The notes beneath the pieces were generated by a model, which saw nothing but the letters and a program-made list of their open reading frames with translations, was not told the origin of the DNA and did not search any database. The position numbers and the translations under genes are program-made. Below are positions 15,276 through 31,474 of a stretch of DNA of 64,000 bases, piece by piece; positions within the stretch are counted from its first letter, which is position 1; every line of letters starts with the position of its first letter. Source of the stretch: Candidatus Nitrospira allomarina (GTDB lineage: Bacteria > Nitrospirota > Nitrospiria > Nitrospirales > UBA8639); NCBI RefSeq assembly GCF_032050975.1, contig NZ_CP116967.1:1-64000 (forward strand), in the 5' to 3' direction.

Positions 15276-17147
15276 TTAGACTTTACCTTTACGCCTATTG
15301 GCCCGCCGGGTCAAAATCCACCCTTCCACAAGGACCAACCCAATAGCGGCCAGCGTTGGGTAAATATATGTTTCCTTTTCAATCGGTGGCTCTAACACCA
15401 GATAATAGAAAGCGGAAACTGCCATCTTACGTCCTACGTCCCCATTGTGACCATCCCACACGAAGAAATTAATAGGAATATATTTTCCCAATTCAATGTA
15501 GGCATCCTCTTCGTAGTCACCTTTAAGTGGTCTGGTGACGATAACAGTCCATCTTCCATCCTTCCACTCGGCTTTCACCGTTTTTAATTGTTCGGTGAAA
15601 TCGTCACGATCATCGAAATCTACATCCCACCCTGTACCTTGATAGGCTTTCAATTCCCCGTCAGCCGTCCATTTGGTGATGTCCACGGGAAATCCCTCAT
15701 CGCCCCAGAAATATCTTGGTTTCCGAGGTGCAGGCAATTCCTGCCATTTTATCGGCAATTGGAAGGCAAGCCCATCATTAAAAACCTGATAGGCAGTTTG
15801 TTTGGCAGCGATAGATTCAGGATGTTCAGGATCATCAGCAAACTTCGAGCCTCCGGGAGGCTGCTCCTCTATTCCATAATCACCAAGATTTACCTCATAG
15901 GGCTCCCAGTCTACCTCATCTTGCTGGACACTTTTTGTCCTGTCATCCCAACGGAACATAAACGAAATATGGGTTTCGTTGTAGAGCGATTGAACCCACA
16001 CATCGTCAATTCTGGTTACGAAGTTTCGTGGCTTATGGGTGATCTGGCCCCCCATTGCCACGATCCTACGATCAACCAGGTCCCACCGTTCGTCGTGCTC
16101 GTCAACGGGTAACTCCCCCTCAACGAATTTCGAAGGAACAACGAAATCGACTTTGGGCTTATCCGTTAAAGGATCGATTGACCGGGGTTTGGCTGCTACT
16201 AACTCGGCAGCGATTTCATCCGTCACATTCCCGCCGGCAATATCTACGTCCTTATCCCTTTCACAAAGATGGTTTACATAGTTTGCAATGTGCCATCTAT
16301 CCTCGACGGTAGTATTATCGGCAAACGAAGGCATAGGCGTTCCGCTTACCCCCGTAGAAAATGTCCTGAAAATGTTCTTGACATTATAGGCATCCTGCCG
16401 GCTACCTCTAAAATTCCAACATTTATGCCAGTCGGCAGGTTGAATGGAAAAACCCCAGTCATCCTTGAGGTTGAATGCATTCCCGTCTCCGCGGCCCTCC
16501 AACCCATGGCATTCAATACACTTCATTTCTTTCACAAGTTCGGATCCACGCTTCACCGATTCTGCCGTAGGAGGAACTGGTTCAATTTTATCCAATTGCA
16601 ACACATGAAATTCTTCAAATTCGGTATCTTGCCAACTACGATCTTTAACCAATTCGGTCGTGACAAAGGCCAAGACATCCCTGCGTTGGTCCTCAGTCAA
16701 AATACCTTCCCAGGAAGGCATAGCCGATCCCGGCAATCCATGTGTCACAGTTTGAAATAAATCCACGTCAATGAGAGGTAATTCACCGCTGGCCGTATGA
16801 CGGATTTTAAAAGTACCTGCATTAAAATTACGTGGCCTGGGCCAAAGTCGATCTGCTCCCGGACCGTCTCCCGCCCCGTTAACGCCATGGCACCAAACAC
16901 ATTTGGTGAAATACACTCGCTTCCCTGCTTCAACTTGTTCGGCAGATGGTGGAGCAGGACGGCTCCCCTCGGCAAATCCTTCCGCCATTTCCGCATGGGA
17001 CGTGTTAGCAAAGCCGAGCCCCCCAAAAAGGAGACCGCAACTCAGAAGCCATGCTCCTAGGCCACGTCTACCATATCCGGCTGTATTGGTTTCGTTCATG
17101 ACCATCCTCTTTTCAAAGTGTCCAGTATCGATTTGAATTTCATTCAT
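15276..17147 (-). CDS. dihaem cytochrome c fused to ethylbenzene-dehydrogenase-like haem domain, membrane-anchored
   Basis: I take the ATG at 17147, which has AGGAGG eight bases upstream and follows the stop of the preceding gene by 13 bases; this gives 623 residues. A start at 17231 would overlap the upstream gene. After a hydrophobic export segment come two cytochrome c domains (CVWCH about 83-87, CIECH about 210-214). A long beta-rich region at about 350-590 resembles the EB_dh haem-b domain found in gamma subunits of DMSO-reductase-family enzymes, such as ethylbenzene dehydrogenase and NxrC-type proteins. A C-terminal helix anchors it, so it should face the periplasm. As last gene of the oxidase operon it is a candidate electron-entry subunit; the EB_dh call is by general resemblance. 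Confidence 0.85.
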   Translation of the reverse strand: MNEIQIDTGHFEKRMVMNETNTAGYGRRGLGAWLLSCGLLFGGLGFANTSHAEMAEGFAEGSRPAPPSAEQVEAGKRVYFTKCVWCHGVNGAGDGPGADRLWPRPRNFNAGTFKIRHTASGELPLIDVDLFQTVTHGLPGSAMPSWEGILTEDQRRDVLAFVTTELVKDRSWQDTEFEEFHVLQLDKIEPVPPTAESVKRGSELVKEMKCIECHGLEGRGDGNAFNLKDDWGFSIQPADWHKCWNFRGSRQDAYNVKNIFRTFSTGVSGTPMPSFADNTTVEDRWHIANYVNHLCERDKDVDIAGGNVTDEIAAELVAAKPRSIDPLTDKPKVDFVVPSKFVEGELPVDEHDERWDLVDRRIVAMGGQITHKPRNFVTRIDDVWVQSLYNETHISFMFRWDDRTKSVQQDEVDWEPYEVNLGDYGIEEQPPGGSKFADDPEHPESIAAKQTAYQVFNDGLAFQLPIKWQELPAPRKPRYFWGDEGFPVDITKWTADGELKAYQGTGWDVDFDDRDDFTEQLKTVKAEWKDGRWTVIVTRPLKGDYEEDAYIELGKYIPINFFVWDGHNGDVGRKMAVSAFYYLVLEPPIEKETYIYPTLAAIGLVLVEGWILTRRANRRKGKV

Positions 17148-17160
17148 GTCCGCGTCCTCC

Positions 17161-18129
17161 TTATTCCCAAGTACGCGGGTAATACCCGGTGTGCCAGTAT
17201 TCAAACATGATGACTTTCCAAATTTCATCAACCGTTAAATGCTGTTCCCACGGGGGCATGACGGATGCCCATGGGAATCCTTCACCAGGAAGCCCAATTC
17301 CACCTTTAGCCACCCGCCAGAAAACAAAGGTTTCTTGAAGCTGAGCAATGGTCCCGGCATCTGTAAAATTGGCAGGAATTGGATTAAAGGCAAACGCCCA
17401 GAGGCCGCGACCGTTCAAATTATCCCCATGACAGAAATGGCAATTTTGGAAAAAAATCTCTCCCCCTTCCCGAACATGTTTAATATACCCCTTAGCATTG
17501 GGATCCCAGGGGTTATCTTCCGGATTTTTTACATCCTTCATTAAACGTCCCATATCCTGACTTACGATATGAGCATTGCTGTATGCCTGATCGTATTTCC
17601 CCTCTGGATTAATTCGATAGGGATTCGAGGCAGTTTGCAATACATACGTTTTTCCATGCACTTTTGTTGTCGCCGGTGGGGCTGGATGCACGGTTCTCAA
17701 CTCAATGGGTTCATCAAAGCTGGGAAGGAAAGAATTGTAGGCAAACCCCCAAAGCCCGATTGGTAGCAAAATCAATAAGGCTGTTCGAATGAACTTAGTC
17801 ATTCCAGTTTTGGCGTCCAAAACATTTATGATAGGACGCTTAAACTCCTCCCACTCCTGCTGTGAACCCGACACCCACATAAAAATACCGCAAGCTGAAA
17901 CCGTCCCATAAATGGCCCTCACACTAAAGGGAATGGGCGGATAGATTCGATACTTGAGATAGAACAAATTCACAAAACACCAGACAAAGATACCTGCCCA
18001 AAACTTGGGCAAACCTATGCCTGCTCTTTTAAGAGAATAGTTAATAATAGAAAATACAAGGATGCAGACCGCCAACTCTGAAATCATCTGCATCGGCATG
18101 TAGCCTTCAACTAGTTTAAGCCACGTCAT
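17161..18129 (-). CDS. membrane-bound monohaem cytochrome c
   Basis: This 322-residue protein has four predicted helices in the first 130 residues, then a periplasmic domain with one haem-binding CHFCH (230-234) and a downstream methionine-rich MPPWEQH region suited to an axial Met. The second gene of the same type lies immediately upstream, and the oxidase core gene is upstream of that. It probably passes electrons between the soluble or fused cytochromes and the bd-like core. I know no gene symbol. Confidence 0.85.
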   Translation of the reverse strand: MTWLKLVEGYMPMQMISELAVCILVFSIINYSLKRAGIGLPKFWAGIFVWCFVNLFYLKYRIYPPIPFSVRAIYGTVSACGIFMWVSGSQQEWEEFKRPIINVLDAKTGMTKFIRTALLILLPIGLWGFAYNSFLPSFDEPIELRTVHPAPPATTKVHGKTYVLQTASNPYRINPEGKYDQAYSNAHIVSQDMGRLMKDVKNPEDNPWDPNAKGYIKHVREGGEIFFQNCHFCHGDNLNGRGLWAFAFNPIPANFTDAGTIAQLQETFVFWRVAKGGIGLPGEGFPWASVMPPWEQHLTVDEIWKVIMFEYWHTGYYPRTWE

Positions 18130-18174: not shown

Positions 18175-19488
18175 TTATTCTTTTGGAGGTAAAGGTTGGC
18201 CTTCTTTTAATTGTGCCAAATAATCAACCATTTTACTGAGAGCCCCGCCTGTCAATCTTACGCCAAAATCTTTTGGCATTTGATTGTCCGGAAAATCTTT
18301 CACAACATAGGCACTTGGGTTTAATATCGATTCAGTAATGTACTCCTTGGGTGATTTGGCTTTACCCTGATAACCTGGATCTTTGAGACGATTTGGGGCA
18401 TTCGACCCCTCCATGAGGAGAGGACCGACTTTTCCCGTGGCACCTTCAATTCCTGGGATGGTATGGCAGGCCGGACAACCGGCTTTCATAAACAGCTTGT
18501 CGTATGGCTCGCTTCCGTCCGCCAAAAGGTTTCCACCACCTCCTCCAGCTTCTTCTTCTCCACCTGCCGCGGGGCGGTCTGCTTCCGGAATAAATTTTTC
18601 ATATGATGCGACGATTTCATCATAAGCTGGAGGTTCTTTCCCTTCCCGGGTGTATATCCAGGTATCCACCGCGGCCAATTCTCCCAAAGTCAATGATATC
18701 GGTGGCTTGTGAATCTTGGGCATGGGGCTTACCGTGTCATTCGACCCCTTCACACCAAAACCAGTCACCACAAAACAGCTTGGACATGCATGGGACTCGG
18801 CGATATATTCTTGAGCATTCGTTGCCGTTCCTGACCCTGGAAAAGCTTCCTTTTGTTCAGTGGTACGTGCCTCAGGATTATTCATGTGATAATTCGGTTC
18901 TTTTAATCTCTCAGGGGCCGTATCGGGAATTCCATAGAGATTCGGGGCACGCTCACTCAAAAAGCCTTTTTGAAATCCATGGCACAATGGGCATTGGCCT
19001 TTGCCGATGGCCCCTTGCGTTTTACTTTGGCCAATTCCACCGAAAATAATTTTTTCCCCTTCATCACCCAGTTGCTGTGCTGACATACTTTGGAAGTCCA
19101 GCTTGACAACAGGAGGAGGAAATCCACCCTCGACTTGAGGCAGCCAATTTCCATATCCAGAGAGAGCGGCTGCCACAAAGAACATGAAGCCTCCAATTTT
19201 CATCAGTGCACTGATGTTGGGAAAGTAAAGCCCCATAACGAAAGTCATGATGGTAATCATGACCAGAGAAACCGGCAATAAACCGCTGTTCCCTTCAAAA
19301 TTATCTACGTAATTTGAAATGGCGATAAACGCCAAAAATGCACAGAAAATTCCAACTATCGTCTGGAAACTCGCCCGTTTCTTTTTTACAGGATCAGATA
19401 TTGTTGCCTGGAAATATAGCAACAACCCAACCAGCATCAGCAATACTGGCCAACCCATTTCTATGGCCCGTCCCAATAACTCAACCAC
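18175..19488 (-). CDS. membrane-bound dihaem cytochrome c with duplicated cytochrome domain
   Basis: The start is a GTG with GGAGG eight bases upstream. The 437-residue protein has four N-terminal helices (to about 112) and two similar periplasmic cytochrome c domains with CPLCH (166-170) and CPACH (338-342). The two halves share an LKEPNY/LKDPGY and YI.ES pattern, which suggests internal duplication, and they are joined by a Gly/Glu-rich linker near 305-322. A CPSC at 235-238 is followed by Phe, not His, and aligns with a non-haem loop in the other half, so it is not a third haem. It follows the bd-like oxidase gene in the operon. Confidence 0.88.
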   Translation of the reverse strand: MVELLGRAIEMGWPVLLMLVGLLLYFQATISDPVKKKRASFQTIVGIFCAFLAFIAISNYVDNFEGNSGLLPVSLVMITIMTFVMGLYFPNISALMKIGGFMFFVAAALSGYGNWLPQVEGGFPPPVVKLDFQSMSAQQLGDEGEKIIFGGIGQSKTQGAIGKGQCPLCHGFQKGFLSERAPNLYGIPDTAPERLKEPNYHMNNPEARTTEQKEAFPGSGTATNAQEYIAESHACPSCFVVTGFGVKGSNDTVSPMPKIHKPPISLTLGELAAVDTWIYTREGKEPPAYDEIVASYEKFIPEADRPAAGGEEEAGGGGGNLLADGSEPYDKLFMKAGCPACHTIPGIEGATGKVGPLLMEGSNAPNRLKDPGYQGKAKSPKEYITESILNPSAYVVKDFPDNQMPKDFGVRLTGGALSKMVDYLAQLKEGQPLPPKE

Positions 19489-19555: not shown

Positions 19556-21526
19556 TCAATGACCAGTTGCAGACTGAGGAGATGGAACTGGCTGCCCTGC
19601 CGGCGAAGGAACCGGTACTTTTTTCGCACCAAGAGTTCCCAACCAAAAGACAAACATAATACTGATCCAGAAAAATAACACGTTAAACGAAATAACGTTG
19701 GCCGCAAACCCGATTGTATGGGTATACGCCCATGGAGAGTTATCTCGCATGACCTCGTTGACGTGCCAGAACAATCTCACCGAAGAACGGATATAGCCCA
19801 TCAATCCCATCATCCAGGTGAATGCTGTGGCCAACATGATGATGGCATATTGGGAACGCGGGGGAATTTGTCCCCATCTAATTGGTCCCAACTGTCTTCC
19901 ATTTTTTAGCATTGCAAGATTCAGTGGCGTCATTAACAGCAAACATGACAATGTTCCGGCCACCTGAGGCACCGACAACCCAATTCGCACGTTGGCAGGA
20001 ATGAAATACCCATAACAAGCCAACCAAACATTGTTTAGCTGGGCTATGATGAAAAAACATCCCATAAAAATATTGCCAAATTTGGCCCAGCTAACTGTTG
20101 GTACCCTGTTCCCTCGCTGGTACCATATAAAGCTTAAAACGGTCGTCATAATAATGGCATTAATGCCCCCATTTTTTGCCGACATAACACCATAATTACC
20201 CAGAACCGGATGTTGTTGACCACCCATAGCTTTCAATTCGGCCGGGGTCATGACGATCGTATGTGGCGTAATGAAAACCAGAAGACCAACAACTAAAATA
20301 AACACGAGATACTTAATATACTTCTGGAAACGTTCACCACCGGTCATCCGTCCGAGGGCTTGCCACAAGTAATAATTGGTGGTCAGGAACAGGATTCCGA
20401 TCATGGTGGCTTGAATAATAAACAACCAAGCCAACAACCCACCCATCAAGGTGATTCCCATTTGTTGACGGTAGGCATATACCTCACGCATCAACCAATA
20501 ACCCGCAAAGGGCAATGGGATGAGAAATGCTACACCTAAACTCATTGCGATGTAGCCCATCCAATCGTAATGAGCCCGCTCTTCATCTGTTTTTGAAGAA
20601 AGGAAACGGTAAGCTGCATAGGCTGCCACCACACCACCACCAAAGGCCATGTTTCCGAGAATTCTATGAACATTCAAAGGATTCCACAGCGCCGTATGAA
20701 TCACGTGCCAGATATTTCCAAGATAACGTCCTTGCTCATCTACTCCAGCCGGTGACATCATGAATGCAATCCACGAATTGGCAAGGAACATTAACACTGT
20801 CCCAATCACATTCAGGATGACGGACATGCTGAGATGAACCCATTTCAAGACACCTTCCCGCATCTTGTCCCAACCGTAATAATAAATGTAGAGGGTTGCA
20901 CTTTCCGCCACGAACGTTAAGGCATAGATGTGCATGACCGGCCGGAAAATACTGGATAAATATCCAAAGAAGGCCGGATAGAGCGTGAGGAAGGTAAAGA
21001 TCAAAATCCCACCAAGAATGGCGGTTAAAGAATATGCAGTCAGGCTGATCTTAATAAAATCATAAGCCAATTGATCATATTTTTTGGCCATGGCTTTATC
21101 TTTACTGACCATCCCGGCAAATTCGATACACATGCAAAAGATTGGTACCGCCAACACAAAACTTCCATAATAAAGATGCTGCTGGTTGGCCACCCAAAGA
21201 AGGACACGACTCTCAAAGTTATACCGAGGGTAAAATGTTTCATTGTCTTCCGTTACCGGTGCAGGCATCCCAATGGCTGGACCTTCGGTCTTGTAATAAA
21301 CGTCCCGGCCCATTTCCACCTTTTCCGCTTCACCCTCCTCACCTGCTGCCTTTTGCGCGGCAACTACTTCCGGAGGAGGACCACCAGCCGGTGCACCACC
21401 CCCACCTGCCACGGCGGTGACTGACAGGAAAATCGGCAACAACAGCAGACAGCCCATCACCATCAAGGCCGATACGGCAAACAACTTTTTCTTCCCCCGG
21501 GTCATTTGATTGAACAGGCGACCCAT
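19556..21526 (-). CDS. cytochrome bd-like oxidase, large membrane subunit
   Basis: This 656-residue polytopic protein (about 14 helices) resembles CydA in its core. It has an early QQHLYYG segment with His117, an NSWIAFMMSPAG-type loop, WNPLNVHRILG with His287 and a later GYIRSS segment. These match the CydA positions of the first haem-ligating His, the NxWMQ..P-G stretch and the second conserved His. It is longer than classical CydA and has a signal-like N-terminus with a Gly/Pro-rich stretch. No CydB gene is nearby; membrane-bound cytochromes c follow instead, so electrons probably arrive from cytochrome c and not quinol. Such bd-like oxidases are known from Nitrospira. Translation begins seven bases after AGGAGG. 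Oxygen reduction is inferred, not proven. Confidence 0.85.
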   Translation of the reverse strand: MGRLFNQMTRGKKKLFAVSALMVMGCLLLLPIFLSVTAVAGGGGAPAGGPPPEVVAAQKAAGEEGEAEKVEMGRDVYYKTEGPAIGMPAPVTEDNETFYPRYNFESRVLLWVANQQHLYYGSFVLAVPIFCMCIEFAGMVSKDKAMAKKYDQLAYDFIKISLTAYSLTAILGGILIFTFLTLYPAFFGYLSSIFRPVMHIYALTFVAESATLYIYYYGWDKMREGVLKWVHLSMSVILNVIGTVLMFLANSWIAFMMSPAGVDEQGRYLGNIWHVIHTALWNPLNVHRILGNMAFGGGVVAAYAAYRFLSSKTDEERAHYDWMGYIAMSLGVAFLIPLPFAGYWLMREVYAYRQQMGITLMGGLLAWLFIIQATMIGILFLTTNYYLWQALGRMTGGERFQKYIKYLVFILVVGLLVFITPHTIVMTPAELKAMGGQQHPVLGNYGVMSAKNGGINAIIMTTVLSFIWYQRGNRVPTVSWAKFGNIFMGCFFIIAQLNNVWLACYGYFIPANVRIGLSVPQVAGTLSCLLLMTPLNLAMLKNGRQLGPIRWGQIPPRSQYAIIMLATAFTWMMGLMGYIRSSVRLFWHVNEVMRDNSPWAYTHTIGFAANVISFNVLFFWISIMFVFWLGTLGAKKVPVPSPAGQPVPSPQSATGH

Positions 21527-21628: not shown

Positions 21629-21745
21629 CTATCGGAACATGTAAAAATAGTCGAGTCCCTGGGCATCCATCAGGACATAATCCAGTGCCTGGAAATATAC
21701 AAAACAAATGACCAATGAAACTATGACATACAGAGCTGTCTGCAT
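21629..21745 (-). CDS. 38-aa single-helix membrane microprotein, candidate oxidase small subunit
   Basis: The ATG at 21745 is preceded by AAGGAGG at good spacing. The frame encodes 38 residues with one hydrophobic helix (about 4-18) and an aromatic tail ending LDYFYMFR. It lies 102 bases upstream of the bd-like oxidase gene on the same strand, with no terminator between. Size, topology and position recall CydX/CcoQ-type small oxidase subunits, but I see no sequence identity with them. Expression is inferred from the strong ribosome site and operon position. Confidence 0.75.
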   Translation of the reverse strand: MQTALYVIVSLVICFVYFQALDYVLMDAQGLDYFYMFR

Positions 21746-21807
21746 GCGCTCCTCCTTGGGGCTAAAAGTATTAAATGATTGACTACCTTATTAGAAGTCA
21801 TGATTTT

Positions 21808-21942
21808 TTAGCAGGGACACTGAATACCGGCAAACCAATAAAAGAACCACAAACTTACCGCGCATGTCAGATAAAAAATGGCTTTACCTATCTTGGTCTC
21901 TAACTCCGTTGACTCCCTTATGACAGCCGTCGAATCCCCCAT
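21808..21942 (-). CDS. 44-aa single-helix membrane microprotein with C-terminal CPC
   Basis: An ATG at 21942 follows GGGAGG at nine bases. The 44-residue product has a charged N-terminus (about 1-20), one helix (about 21-40, rich in Trp and Phe) and ends QCPC, so two cysteines would lie at the membrane face. It is the first gene of the oxidase operon, 62 bases before the 38-aa gene. It could be a small oxidase subunit or a cofactor-assembly factor, with the CPC pair as a possible metal or thiol site. Confidence 0.75.
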   Translation of the reverse strand: MGDSTAVIRESTELETKIGKAIFYLTCAVSLWFFYWFAGIQCPC

Positions 21943-22006
21943 CTTAATTCCTCCCTATGCTTAATTCGCATTCAAAAAATTAAACGATTTCACCTAATAA
22001 ACTTCA

Positions 22007-22036: not shown

Positions 22037-22071
22037 AACATTTATTGATCACGTAAAACGAGGGATTACTC

Positions 22072-22176
22072 ATGCGTTCAAATGCAAAAGTGTTCGACAT
22101 TATAGTTTTGGCCGGAATGGTTGTCAATATTCTCCTTGCGGTGTTTCTCATACTCTACTATTTTGATTTTCTTTAA
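22072..22176 (+). CDS. 34-aa single-helix membrane microprotein on the opposite strand
   Basis: The frame encodes 34 residues: a short polar N-terminus (MRSNAKVFD) and one helix of about 22 residues ending LYYFDFL. A GAGGG lies seven bases upstream of the ATG, and a TTGACA/extended -10 promoter lies further upstream. It is the only plus-strand gene in the respiratory island and separates the two oxidase modules, which are otherwise both transcribed leftward. Function is unknown; a small regulatory or structural oxidase peptide is possible. Confidence 0.6.
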   Translation: MRSNAKVFDIIVLAGMVVNILLAVFLILYYFDFL

Positions 22177-22221: not shown

Positions 22222-23106
22222 TTAATCTGAACGTGCACACCTGAACCCAATCGTCTCGTCTCTGAAATCAGGAACCATAAAGCTTCTATTGGTTATCCTG
22301 ATATCGACTCCTTGGCTCGTATAGCCACTACCTCTCATTGTCTTGTAGGTAGAAGGAGACCGATTACTCGCCGGCGTAGCAATATTTTCTTGAAGGTAAA
22401 GATCTTCGACATACCAATTATCCGTCCATTCCATAACATTTCCTGCGCCGTCATAAACTCCAAATACACTTTGATCAAGAGGAAAAGCCCCCACCGGAGC
22501 CGACACAACATAACCATCGGCCTCTCCTGCAAAATTGGCAGGATGGCCGCTGAGACCCTCACCCCAGGGCCAGGTGCGACCATCTGTCCCTCGCATAGCC
22601 TTTTCCCATTCCTGTTCAGTAGGAAGACGCTTTCCTCTCCATCGACAATAATCATTCGCATCACTCCATGACACATAGGTAATCGGCTGATGAGGCCCTC
22701 GCAGCAAACCGAGCTTTTCGGCATAGCGGGAAGGCGGACCAGGCTGCCGATGTCCAGTAGCTTCAACAAACTCCATATACCGCTGATAGGTAACCTCGTA
22801 CCGATCAATCCAATATGCATCGAGATGAGCGACGTGCGCAGGCTTTTCATTGAATCCGCCTTGATTACTCCCAAGAATGAATTCCCCAGCAGGAATTTCA
22901 ACCATCTCATCTTCATTTGCCCGACCAGAAAGCGCCACCTCCCTTGATGCCTCAGATGATGTCTCCGAGGCTGAAGAAGGCTGAGATTGAAGATCGCGAT
23001 CCGGTGGCGATGGAGGAGCATCGGTTCCCCTTAATATTCCCAATACCGGCAACCCGGTCATAAATAACACTGCAATCAAAAAAATAAGTTTAAATCGACC
23101 GTCCAT
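22222..23106 (-). CDS. membrane-anchored FGE/SUMF1-like domain protein
   Basis: This 294-residue protein has an N-terminal helix, a Ser/Pro-rich linker and a sulfatase-modifying-factor-type domain from about residue 70, recognisable by EIPAGEFILGS, DAYWIDRYEVT, RLPTEQEWEKA and the closing GFRCA. The cysteine pair that formylglycine-generating enzymes use near the C-terminal end is missing, so it should not oxidise a sulfatase cysteine. Bacterial members without the cysteines often act in other oxidations or as structural partners. It is the last gene of the second oxidase module, after a paralogue. Confidence 0.88.
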   Translation of the reverse strand: MDGRFKLIFLIAVLFMTGLPVLGILRGTDAPPSPPDRDLQSQPSSASETSSEASREVALSGRANEDEMVEIPAGEFILGSNQGGFNEKPAHVAHLDAYWIDRYEVTYQRYMEFVEATGHRQPGPPSRYAEKLGLLRGPHQPITYVSWSDANDYCRWRGKRLPTEQEWEKAMRGTDGRTWPWGEGLSGHPANFAGEADGYVVSAPVGAFPLDQSVFGVYDGAGNVMEWTDNWYVEDLYLQENIATPASNRSPSTYKTMRGSGYTSQGVDIRITNRSFMVPDFRDETIGFRCARSD

Positions 23107-23187
23107 GTTCCCCTATTTCTGGTCCATCAAGGTTGCCTCGAGAAACTATGGGCGATTGGTCTCGCCGACGAGGAGTTTGATTATCGC

Positions 23188-24105
23188 TTATGAGGCTTGA
23201 GGAGTCTCAGTCGGAGGATCCTTTGCGCACCGAAATCCAACACTGGCATCGTTCCTCCACATTTTCGCTGCAAAACGCTTGGTCACCCTGGCGCCTATAC
23301 GAGATTCACGCCAAGAACCTCCACGAATGACTTTATTCTCGTCTTCGTCCTTTGGGCCAGGAGGGTCCCGATATGGAGCCTGCTGATAATAGTCTGGAGC
23401 ATAACTATCCATGACCCACTCAGCCACATTGCCGGTGGCATCATAGAGTCCAAATGGGCTTCTCCCTACTTCATAAGATCCCACGGGAGCTAAAAACTTA
23501 AAGCCATCCTCCTCCCCATCCACATTGGCAAATTGATAATCAAACTTATCACCCCAGGGATAACGGCGCTTTCCTTCTCCCCTTGCCGCTTTTTCCCACT
23601 CCGCTTCTGTGGGCAACCGCTTGCCAGCCCAGCGACAATACCCAAAGGCGTCGTTCCAGCTCACCGCCACCACCGGATAATCGGGCCCGATCAATTTGGC
23701 GACATCATCTTCAAAGACCGGCACCTTAGGTTTGTCCCGTTTCGTCATCTTGATATACCGCTCATAATCTGCCTGCGTGACCTCTTTAAGATCAATGTAA
23801 AACGTTTGGAGGTATACCGGATGGGGTGGCCCTTCATCGGGGTCCCCATCGGCAATGCCCATGGTAAATGGTCCTTCAGGAATTTCTACCATTTCACGAT
23901 TGTCATCCCCCACGAGGGTTTTATACATAGAAAAGTCTTGTGTGGGCATTGGCTGCAACACACGGACATTGGCCGATTGACCGGCCGACAACTCATCCAA
24001 ATCCTTTTTCCCTTTATAGGTCATAACAATCAACATCACGATCATCATGATAAAGGAGCCAAACACAAAAAGTATGGCCCCCATGAGGACCCGTTGATTT
24101 TCCAT
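23188..24105 (-). CDS. membrane-anchored FGE/SUMF1-like domain protein
   Basis: I chose the ATG at 24105 (305 residues), which has AGAGG ten bases upstream; an in-frame GTG lies eight codons earlier. One N-terminal helix is followed by an FGE-like domain with EIPEGPFTMGI, TFYIDLKEVT, RLPTEAEWEKAARG and RGGSWRES, ending GFRCA. The catalytic Cys pair of formylglycine-generating enzyme is absent. The domain should be periplasmic. It is paralogous to the next gene and to a third copy at 38 kb, and is embedded in the operon of the second bd-like oxidase. Confidence 0.88.
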   Translation of the reverse strand: MENQRVLMGAILFVFGSFIMMIVMLIVMTYKGKKDLDELSAGQSANVRVLQPMPTQDFSMYKTLVGDDNREMVEIPEGPFTMGIADGDPDEGPPHPVYLQTFYIDLKEVTQADYERYIKMTKRDKPKVPVFEDDVAKLIGPDYPVVAVSWNDAFGYCRWAGKRLPTEAEWEKAARGEGKRRYPWGDKFDYQFANVDGEEDGFKFLAPVGSYEVGRSPFGLYDATGNVAEWVMDSYAPDYYQQAPYRDPPGPKDEDENKVIRGGSWRESRIGARVTKRFAAKMWRNDASVGFRCAKDPPTETPQAS

Positions 24106-24153
24106 TACTATTTTGCCTCTCGGTTCCACATAATCAGCACAATTTCAGTTTAA

Positions 24154-30679: not shown

Positions 30680-31474
30680 TTATTTAATCTCGAAATTGGC
30701 TTCGACGGTTCCCCCGTCCTTCACATCCACATCGGCTTCCACTTCCCCGGCAATAGGATGCCAGGCCTTTACTTTGTGCTTGCCGGCAGGCACGTCCTTG
30801 ATTTCAAAGGTTCCGTCGGCACCAGCCACGCCATAATGCGCATTGGTCACCGGCAAATACCAGCCTTGCATAAATTCGTGTTGGTCACATTGTAACCGCA
30901 ACACAGATCCCTTTTTCGACATTTTCAATTTGACGTTTTTTTCTAAAGAATCACCTTTTTTGGCCAGACCGATATTAAACTCGGTGCTGGACTTGGCACC
31001 CAATTGATCAAAGCTATGCGGGTTATGCAACACCCCTTCAGCCGACTTAGGATCGCTTGGATCAGCATCGTTATTGACTACCTTAAACAGGCCCTTACTT
31101 ACGGCCACTCCCGTATACGGAATAAACTCGCATAATTCAGCCTCGACCACTTGCGGGGCCTCCTTGTCGGCTTTGTCTAAGAATGCTTTGTCTTGAATAT
31201 CCGTAACCGCCACCACGGCATTCTTTAAACCCTTGCTTCCATCTACTTCCACTTCCTTCAGCAACCGGGTATTCCCATCCGCACTTTTGCTCTCATTTTT
31301 TTTGCAAAAATCCACATTGGGAAATTTTGAGAAGGCAAATTCTTTCGGTGGGGGAACTTCTCCGGCAAATGTGACTTTCCCTTTAATAGTTCCCCCCGCC
31401 TGGGCGACTAATGGGGCAGCAATAAGAATGCAGCCCACTAAAAATGACATAGTTAAAGACTGACGGTTCCTCAT
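30680..31474 (-). CDS. periplasmic amicyanin-type cupredoxin fused to carboxypeptidase-regulatory-like domain
   Basis: This 264-residue protein has a clear signal peptide (cleavage near Ala26). The central part is cupredoxin-like with a possible copper site His150 or His153, Cys196, His199 and Met202 in CDQHEFM, the CxxHxxM spacing seen in amicyanin. The C-terminal 55 residues form a carboxypeptidase-regulatory-like beta-sandwich (GTFEIKDVPAGKHKVKAWHP). It is likely a periplasmic electron carrier or copper-binding protein. It is transcribed alone from its own promoter with a structured leader and ends at a strong terminator. Two diverged paralogues lie at 36-38 kb. Confidence 0.83.
   Translation of the reverse strand: MRNRQSLTMSFLVGCILIAAPLVAQAGGTIKGKVTFAGEVPPPKEFAFSKFPNVDFCKKNESKSADGNTRLLKEVEVDGSKGLKNAVVAVTDIQDKAFLDKADKEAPQVVEAELCEFIPYTGVAVSKGLFKVVNNDADPSDPKSAEGVLHNPHSFDQLGAKSSTEFNIGLAKKGDSLEKNVKLKMSKKGSVLRLQCDQHEFMQGWYLPVTNAHYGVAGADGTFEIKDVPAGKHKVKAWHPIAGEVEADVDVKDGGTVEANFEIK

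Follow-up and report, generated by a model that had tools for sequence, protein, structure and literature searches.

The locus raises the question of what is encoded by the very short reading frames that lie directly in front of a gene for a CydA-like membrane protein, and whether their products belong with that protein. The stretch of DNA analysed, hereafter the window, comprises 64,000 nt of the closed 4.55-Mb genome of Candidatus Nitrospira allomarina, which gene content and the literature would place in the Nitrospirales. On its minus strand, genes for a 44-aa and a 38-aa microprotein are followed by those for the 656-aa CydA-like membrane protein bd-like_3, the presumed core (19556..21526), a 437-aa membrane diheme cytochrome c (18175..19488), a 322-aa membrane monoheme cytochrome c (17161..18129) and a 651-aa alternative NxrC-like protein (15276..17231); the latter contains two heme c motifs and an EB_dh / DMSO reductase II heme b domain and corresponds to alt_NxrC_2 of PMC6606698. 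The first two gaps measure 62 and 102 nt. The first operon gene (21808..21942, minus strand; ATG start, TAA stop) encodes the 44-aa protein (44-type), which has one helix at residues 21-38 (mean Kyte-Doolittle value 1.64 over 18 residues) and a C-terminal CPC; it is preceded by the Shine-Dalgarno site GGGAGGA (21949..21955). The 38-aa protein (38-type; 21629..21745, minus strand; ATG start, TAG stop) has its single helix at residues 4-21 (mean 2.33), a C-terminal motif D-x3-M-x2-Q-G-L and the Shine-Dalgarno site AAGGAGG (21751..21757). Both frames were found as given in the preliminary description: each has a strong ribosome site and a single helix, and each lies upstream of the 656-aa gene on its strand. 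That description counted two microproteins; there are three, the overlooked one being encoded by a divergent single-helix gene of 34 aa (34-type; 22072..22176, plus strand) with the Shine-Dalgarno-like sequence GAGGGA at 22060..22065.

How far can the window by itself vouch for such frames? When all of it was scanned for frames that begin with ATG, span 30-60 aa, have a strong Shine-Dalgarno site and include an 18-residue stretch scoring at least 2.0, one frame qualified, that of 38 aa; 20 first-order Markov sequences yielded 0.1 such frames on average. Lowering the cut to 1.4 admitted four frames, the 44-aa and 38-aa frames and two others, so that the evidence from the single sequence is modest. 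At the sequence level, the decisive evidence for these two frames is comparative and comes from orthologous loci and dN/dS ratios.

Iterated profiles were run against every frame in the 1.6 kb upstream of each collected bd-like gene; the resulting counts should be read with the caveat that loose matches come easily for single helices and that members were admitted to the families iteratively, at E 0.01. The same 11,302 frames, when reversed or shuffled, produced no profile match, and the window contained exactly one match per microprotein family. In Nitrospirales, every ortholog locus with 500 nt or more of upstream sequence carries all three microproteins beside the bd-like gene (92 of 92); four of the 96 loci were omitted from the count because their upstream sequence was too short. 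A Shine-Dalgarno-like site was kept by 89 of 93 44-type and 92 of 93 38-type Nitrospirales sequences. The proposed test for refutation, by loss of frames, starts, ribosome sites or helix in relatives, was run and did not refute the proposal. The 38-type protein of some f3 genera (L054, L056, L058, L059) is 67-70 aa long and carries an additional N-terminal hydrophobic stretch.

None of the microproteins occurred beside bd-like paralogs (0 of 18 loci) or beside more distant bd-like genes (0 of 18 loci). Among the paralogs is a duplicate in the window's own genome (L002, G000:C1:346861-348765) that is 80% identical and has none of the three adjoining it; a closely similar core may therefore manage without the microproteins or borrow them. 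Among 20 Nitrospirota genomes lacking a bd-like match at 1e-60, the 38-type profile had no matches and the 44-type profile two weak ones (E 0.04 and 0.1).

The proposed Ka/Ks test of the 44-aa and 38-aa frames was run and indicated purifying selection, with dN/dS of 0.06-0.08 for the 44-type and 0.14-0.22 for the 38-type (families f1 and f3). The 34-type is the most conserved of the three (0.04-0.05 in the same families). Near-fixed over the broad alignments are G19 and an FF/W cluster in the 44-type, D22, M26, Q29, G30 and L31 in the 38-type, and D9, G15 and N19 in the 34-type. Judged by these substitution patterns, purifying selection on the trio is strong at the protein level. As the 44-aa and 38-aa frames occupy the 5′ part of the operon behind a predicted promoter, one might take them for regulatory upstream ORFs or leader peptides. 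Against this reading stand protein conservation across phyla, hydrophobic helices, fixed residues and dN/dS of 0.06-0.22, and the genes occur away from the operon, too; we find this explanation scarcely credible.

The three families reach well beyond Nitrospirales. In other orders of the class, the 44-type and the 38-type were each found near the bd-like gene in 17 of 18 cases and the 34-type in 7 of 18; in the remaining genomes the 34-type was located elsewhere (11 of 11, with E values between 1e-10 and 1e-13), in most of them on the contig of the bd-like gene. Loci from other Nitrospirota classes had the 44-, 38- and 34-types in 5, 5 and 4 of 5 cases, respectively. Eighteen of 24 Nitrospinota genomes contained the 38-type, which adjoins the bd-like gene in most of the fetched loci; the 44-type was missing from most loci of this phylum. 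At two Nitrospinota loci (L215, L217), none of the trio stood beside the bd-like gene, and the 44- and 38-types were sited elsewhere in those genomes. A scan of species genomes with a distant query, from which the best 80 of at least 551 loci were taken, returned records of Nitrospirota, Nitrospinota and Alpha-, Beta-, Gamma- and Deltaproteobacteria. Searching these best 80 loci over their whole length found the 44-type in 57, the 38-type in 72 and the 34-type in 56; of the 23 among them without the 44-type, nine had less than about 350 nt of upstream sequence. In other Nitrospirota, in Nitrospinota and in Alpha- to Deltaproteobacteria, the homologs are again found with the bd-like/cytochrome c/NxrC-like operon. 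No plasmid record matched the bd-like protein at E 1e-40. Across several phyla, the microprotein genes go with this bd-like operon and not with its paralogs. Such a pattern suits small subunits of the complex, and the trio would serve as markers of true orthologs among the many bd-like paralogs.

We consider it likely that the proteins of 44, 38 and 34 aa, with one helix each, are small subunits of a single membrane complex built around the CydA-like core. In this complex, the 656-aa core would be combined with both membrane cytochromes c and with the NxrC-like heme b protein, the genes of which follow its own. Each helix would dock on the core in the way CydX, CydH and CydS dock on canonical CydA, and the docked helices would stabilise the heme pockets as well as the cytochrome contact. 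As subunit families that seem to have been overlooked and can be traced across phyla, the three would offer tags for purifying and solving the complex, and they would be chains that cryo-EM or multimer models of it should include.

The genes downstream of the core are linked almost as tightly as the core itself, the diheme cytochrome c being kept at 81 of 84 loci and the NxrC-like gene at 72 of 84. The trio might be part of the cytochrome c / NxrC-like module, or of a supercomplex formed with it, without contacting the CydA-like protein. Gene order alone cannot separate membership of the module from that of the core, but the 44- and 38-type genes usually lie immediately upstream of the CydA-like gene and have a precedent in CydX-type subunits; we give the module reading a lesser, though appreciable, probability.

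The placement of the 34-type gene varies even where it is linked: it is divergent in some loci, first and co-directional in L186, L230, L231, L249, L251 and L276, behind the operon in L248, L257 and L259, and about 4 kb upstream in gammaproteobacteria, near a carboxypeptidase-regulatory-like gene. That the 34-type can be separated from the operon (2-4 kb away or on another contig), and the 44- and 38-types as well in the two Nitrospinota genomes, would also suit assembly or insertion factors serving heme loading or the maturation of the cytochrome c / NxrC module, rather than stoichiometric subunits; their metal-binding-like tails (CPC, His) could deliver cofactors. However, these proteins have no soluble or catalytic domain and little beyond one helix with conserved residues, such as G15 and N19 of the 34-type, and the known terminal-oxidase proteins of this size are mostly subunits. 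We regard assembly factors as improbable and retain the reading of three subunits.

The core itself matches the Pfam family Cyt_bd_oxida_I (PF01654) with E 4.3e-14. Its AlphaFold2 model, computed from 78 sequences (pLDDT 80.8, pTM 0.80), superimposed on CydA chains with Z 29-34 and an rmsd of 3.2-4.0 over 345-358 residues; as modelled, the 656-aa protein has the CydA fold. The next structural matches of the model, ActF/ActC of alternative complex III (Z 18-21), hint at a shared ancestry of these folds with CydA. Core residue H117 aligns with H21 of 5doq_A and H287 with or next to H186, residues that serve as heme ligands in CydA; both core residues are invariant in the 78 sequences.

The window operon matches the bd-like_3 / alt_NxrC_2 cluster of N. 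moscoviensis, which, according to PMC6606698, ranks within the 40 most highly transcribed loci of that organism. A closely related layout is reported as conserved in Nitrospina and anammox bacteria (PMC3578206, PMC8026999). The bd-like/NxrC cluster is also described as conserved in other nitrite oxidisers (PMC8026999), which makes additional subunits of it worth knowing. TO_1 of Ca. Manganitrophaceae (PMC9040806) would seem to be the same complex. Descriptions of the cluster and of TO_1 share a make-up of CydA-like protein, cytochromes c and NxrC-like protein (periplasmic cytochrome b) (PMC6606698, PMC3578206, PMC8026999, PMC9040806). The available parts of these four papers contain no mention of small single-helix genes in the cluster, and among openly licensed papers we found no mention of these microproteins.

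In PMC12342949 and PMC10839748, bd-like proteins are read as a terminal oxidase of the OR-N type, and by this naming the core would be of OR-N type. Quinone-linked reverse electron transport or a role as NXR anchor are alternatives raised in PMC6606698 and PMC3578206. Since the literature is divided on bd-like function, "oxidase" serves as a label, and the complex may act in cytochrome c / NxrC electron transfer or in reverse flow. Of the earlier proposal that the microproteins are small subunits of a bd-like oxidase, the subunit half gains support from the linkage to this operon; the other half is a matter of naming.

Are the microproteins members of a known family of small subunits? The closest likeness is to CydX (YbgT_YccB) of cytochrome bd-I, a 37-aa single-helix protein encoded together with a CydA, whose motif YxxWxxGx15E/D is described for 97% of homologs (PMC4325964). 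YxxWxxG was present in none of 155 44-type, 169 38-type and 98 34-type distinct sequences, and the YbgT_YccB profile had no match at E up to 1 among the window proteins or 38, 38 and 27 members of the respective families. The CydX gene lies in the cydAB operon downstream of cydB, whereas the 44- and 38-aa genes precede the CydA-like gene, which is followed by cytochromes c and no cydB; moreover, CydX is one family and the window trio represents three. Unrelated short helices have been recruited to bd oxidases repeatedly, as PMC4325964 describes for CydY and CydZ (DUF2474). Membership in CydX, CydZ or CcoQ families was also tried with Pfam and NCBIfam models on the single proteins and on the 38, 38 and 27 members, which gave scattered weak matches and no family in more than four members. 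CydS and CydH are further short helices recruited to bd oxidases. The trio differs from CydY, CydZ, CydS and CydH in having no profile match to these families, the window proteins lack a tryptophan at the helix start, and cytochromes c here take the place of CydB next to the core. CcoQ and CcoM are short single-helix subunits of cbb3 oxidase; their models matched one member each at chance level (E 0.2 and 0.03, respectively), and the best structural match of the window's core is CydA, not a heme-copper oxidase. A profile search against the PDB returned no chain for the 44- and 34-types and two chance-level chains for the 38-type. By these searches, the trio is outside any convincing Pfam or NCBIfam family or PDB chain. 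The three proteins look CydX-like in kind, analogous to CydX and, on the tests made, not members of its family.

Lysine and arginine residues per protein numbered 2.61 on the N-side and 0.11 on the C-side of the helix in the 44-type and 2.94 and 0.16 in the 34-type; with the positive charges at the N-terminus, the C-termini of both should face the periplasm. This predicted orientation is that of CydX, with its N-terminus inside and its C-terminus periplasmic (PMC4325964). The 38-type showed no clear orientation (K+R higher on the N-side in 42 of 167 sequences and on the C-side in 80 of 167). The tail of the 44-type would accordingly be exposed on the periplasmic side, at the presumed place of electron hand-over by the cytochromes c, and could be a metal ligand. 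The preliminary description had pointed to its CPC as a potential metal or thiol site. The motif is indeed present, but it is a trait of Nitrospirales (91 of 93 sequences, with HH in the other two, family f4) and not of the whole family. Elsewhere in the Nitrospirota, 16 of 18 and 5 of 5 sequences have a His among their last eight residues; the distant set has one there in 26 of 54 cases and neither CPC nor His in the other 28. A metal- or heme-facing role of the tail is possible on this residue pattern, though not general. We also searched the bd-like, 437-aa, 322-aa and NxrC-like proteins for a Cys that might have arisen along with CPC as its partner, and no alignment column tracked CPC cleanly; a bd-like Cys near residue 131 and C271/C323 of the NxrC-like protein are present in lineages without CPC as well. 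A bolder idea, which we regard as a long shot, is that the periplasmic tail of the 44-aa protein forms a minimal metal site in electron transfer between cytochrome c/NxrC and the core and that the three helices replace a conventional second subunit. If true, chemolithotrophs of several phyla would possess a respiratory complex of a new type, in which a CydA fold is combined with microproteins.

A further peculiarity concerns the 34-aa gene, within which a predicted sigma-70-type promoter with perfect TTGACA-17-TATAAT lies in antisense (22099..22127, minus strand), aimed at the operon. Both hexamers were perfect in 85 of 86 loci (tally of f1 and f3, from 91 Nitrospirales sequences). Third codon positions within the hexamers were identical in 89-90 of 91 sequences, several neighbouring third positions in 57-78 of 91. 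The overlapping codons had a pS of 0.23-0.24 and the C-terminal codons one of 0.65 (f1) and 0.47 (f3), with pN of 0.03-0.04; outside the promoter, pN/pS was 0.05 (f1) and 0.09 (f3). The frozen synonymous sites and the low pN beyond the promoter suggest that the 34-aa protein and the embedded DNA element each appear to be under selection. As the hexamers occupy the most conserved part of the 34-aa frame, the frame could be suspected of being a by-product of a conserved antisense promoter. This is very improbable, given the f1 values for the 14 C-terminal codons outside the promoter (pS 0.65, pN 0.03) and the homologs elsewhere that are co-directional or distant; in distant 34-type genes the embedded promoter was found no more often than the shuffled mean. 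The operon is probably transcribed from a promoter inside the divergent 34-aa gene, and the predicted transcript, starting near 22092, would overlap the start codon of that gene in antisense. Such an arrangement would keep the core and its small subunits under one control region, and, with the promoter frozen inside a microprotein gene and the divergent 5′ ends overlapping, the sequence would clearly be constrained both as coding and as regulatory DNA.

Several additional observations concern the neighbourhood of the operon. The operon of bd-like, cytochrome c and NxrC-like genes is present as two copies in tandem at proteobacterial loci (L228, L230, L231, L232, L239, L241, L244, L254, L256, L276, L279), in which the core fragment of the upstream copy is just 32-41% identical to the window's core. 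Window positions 30680-31474 encode a 264-aa protein that, by its sequence, is presumably carboxypeptidase-regulatory-like. Homologs of it lie upstream of the operon in gammaproteobacteria (L263, L264, L265, L267, L269, L270, L271, L273, L280, L287, L290, L293), several of them adjoining the 34-type gene. Finally, two genes for formylglycine-generating-enzyme-like (SUMF1) proteins lie between the two bd-like genes (window 22222-24129), and SUMF1-like homologs are located upstream of the operon in L210-L212.
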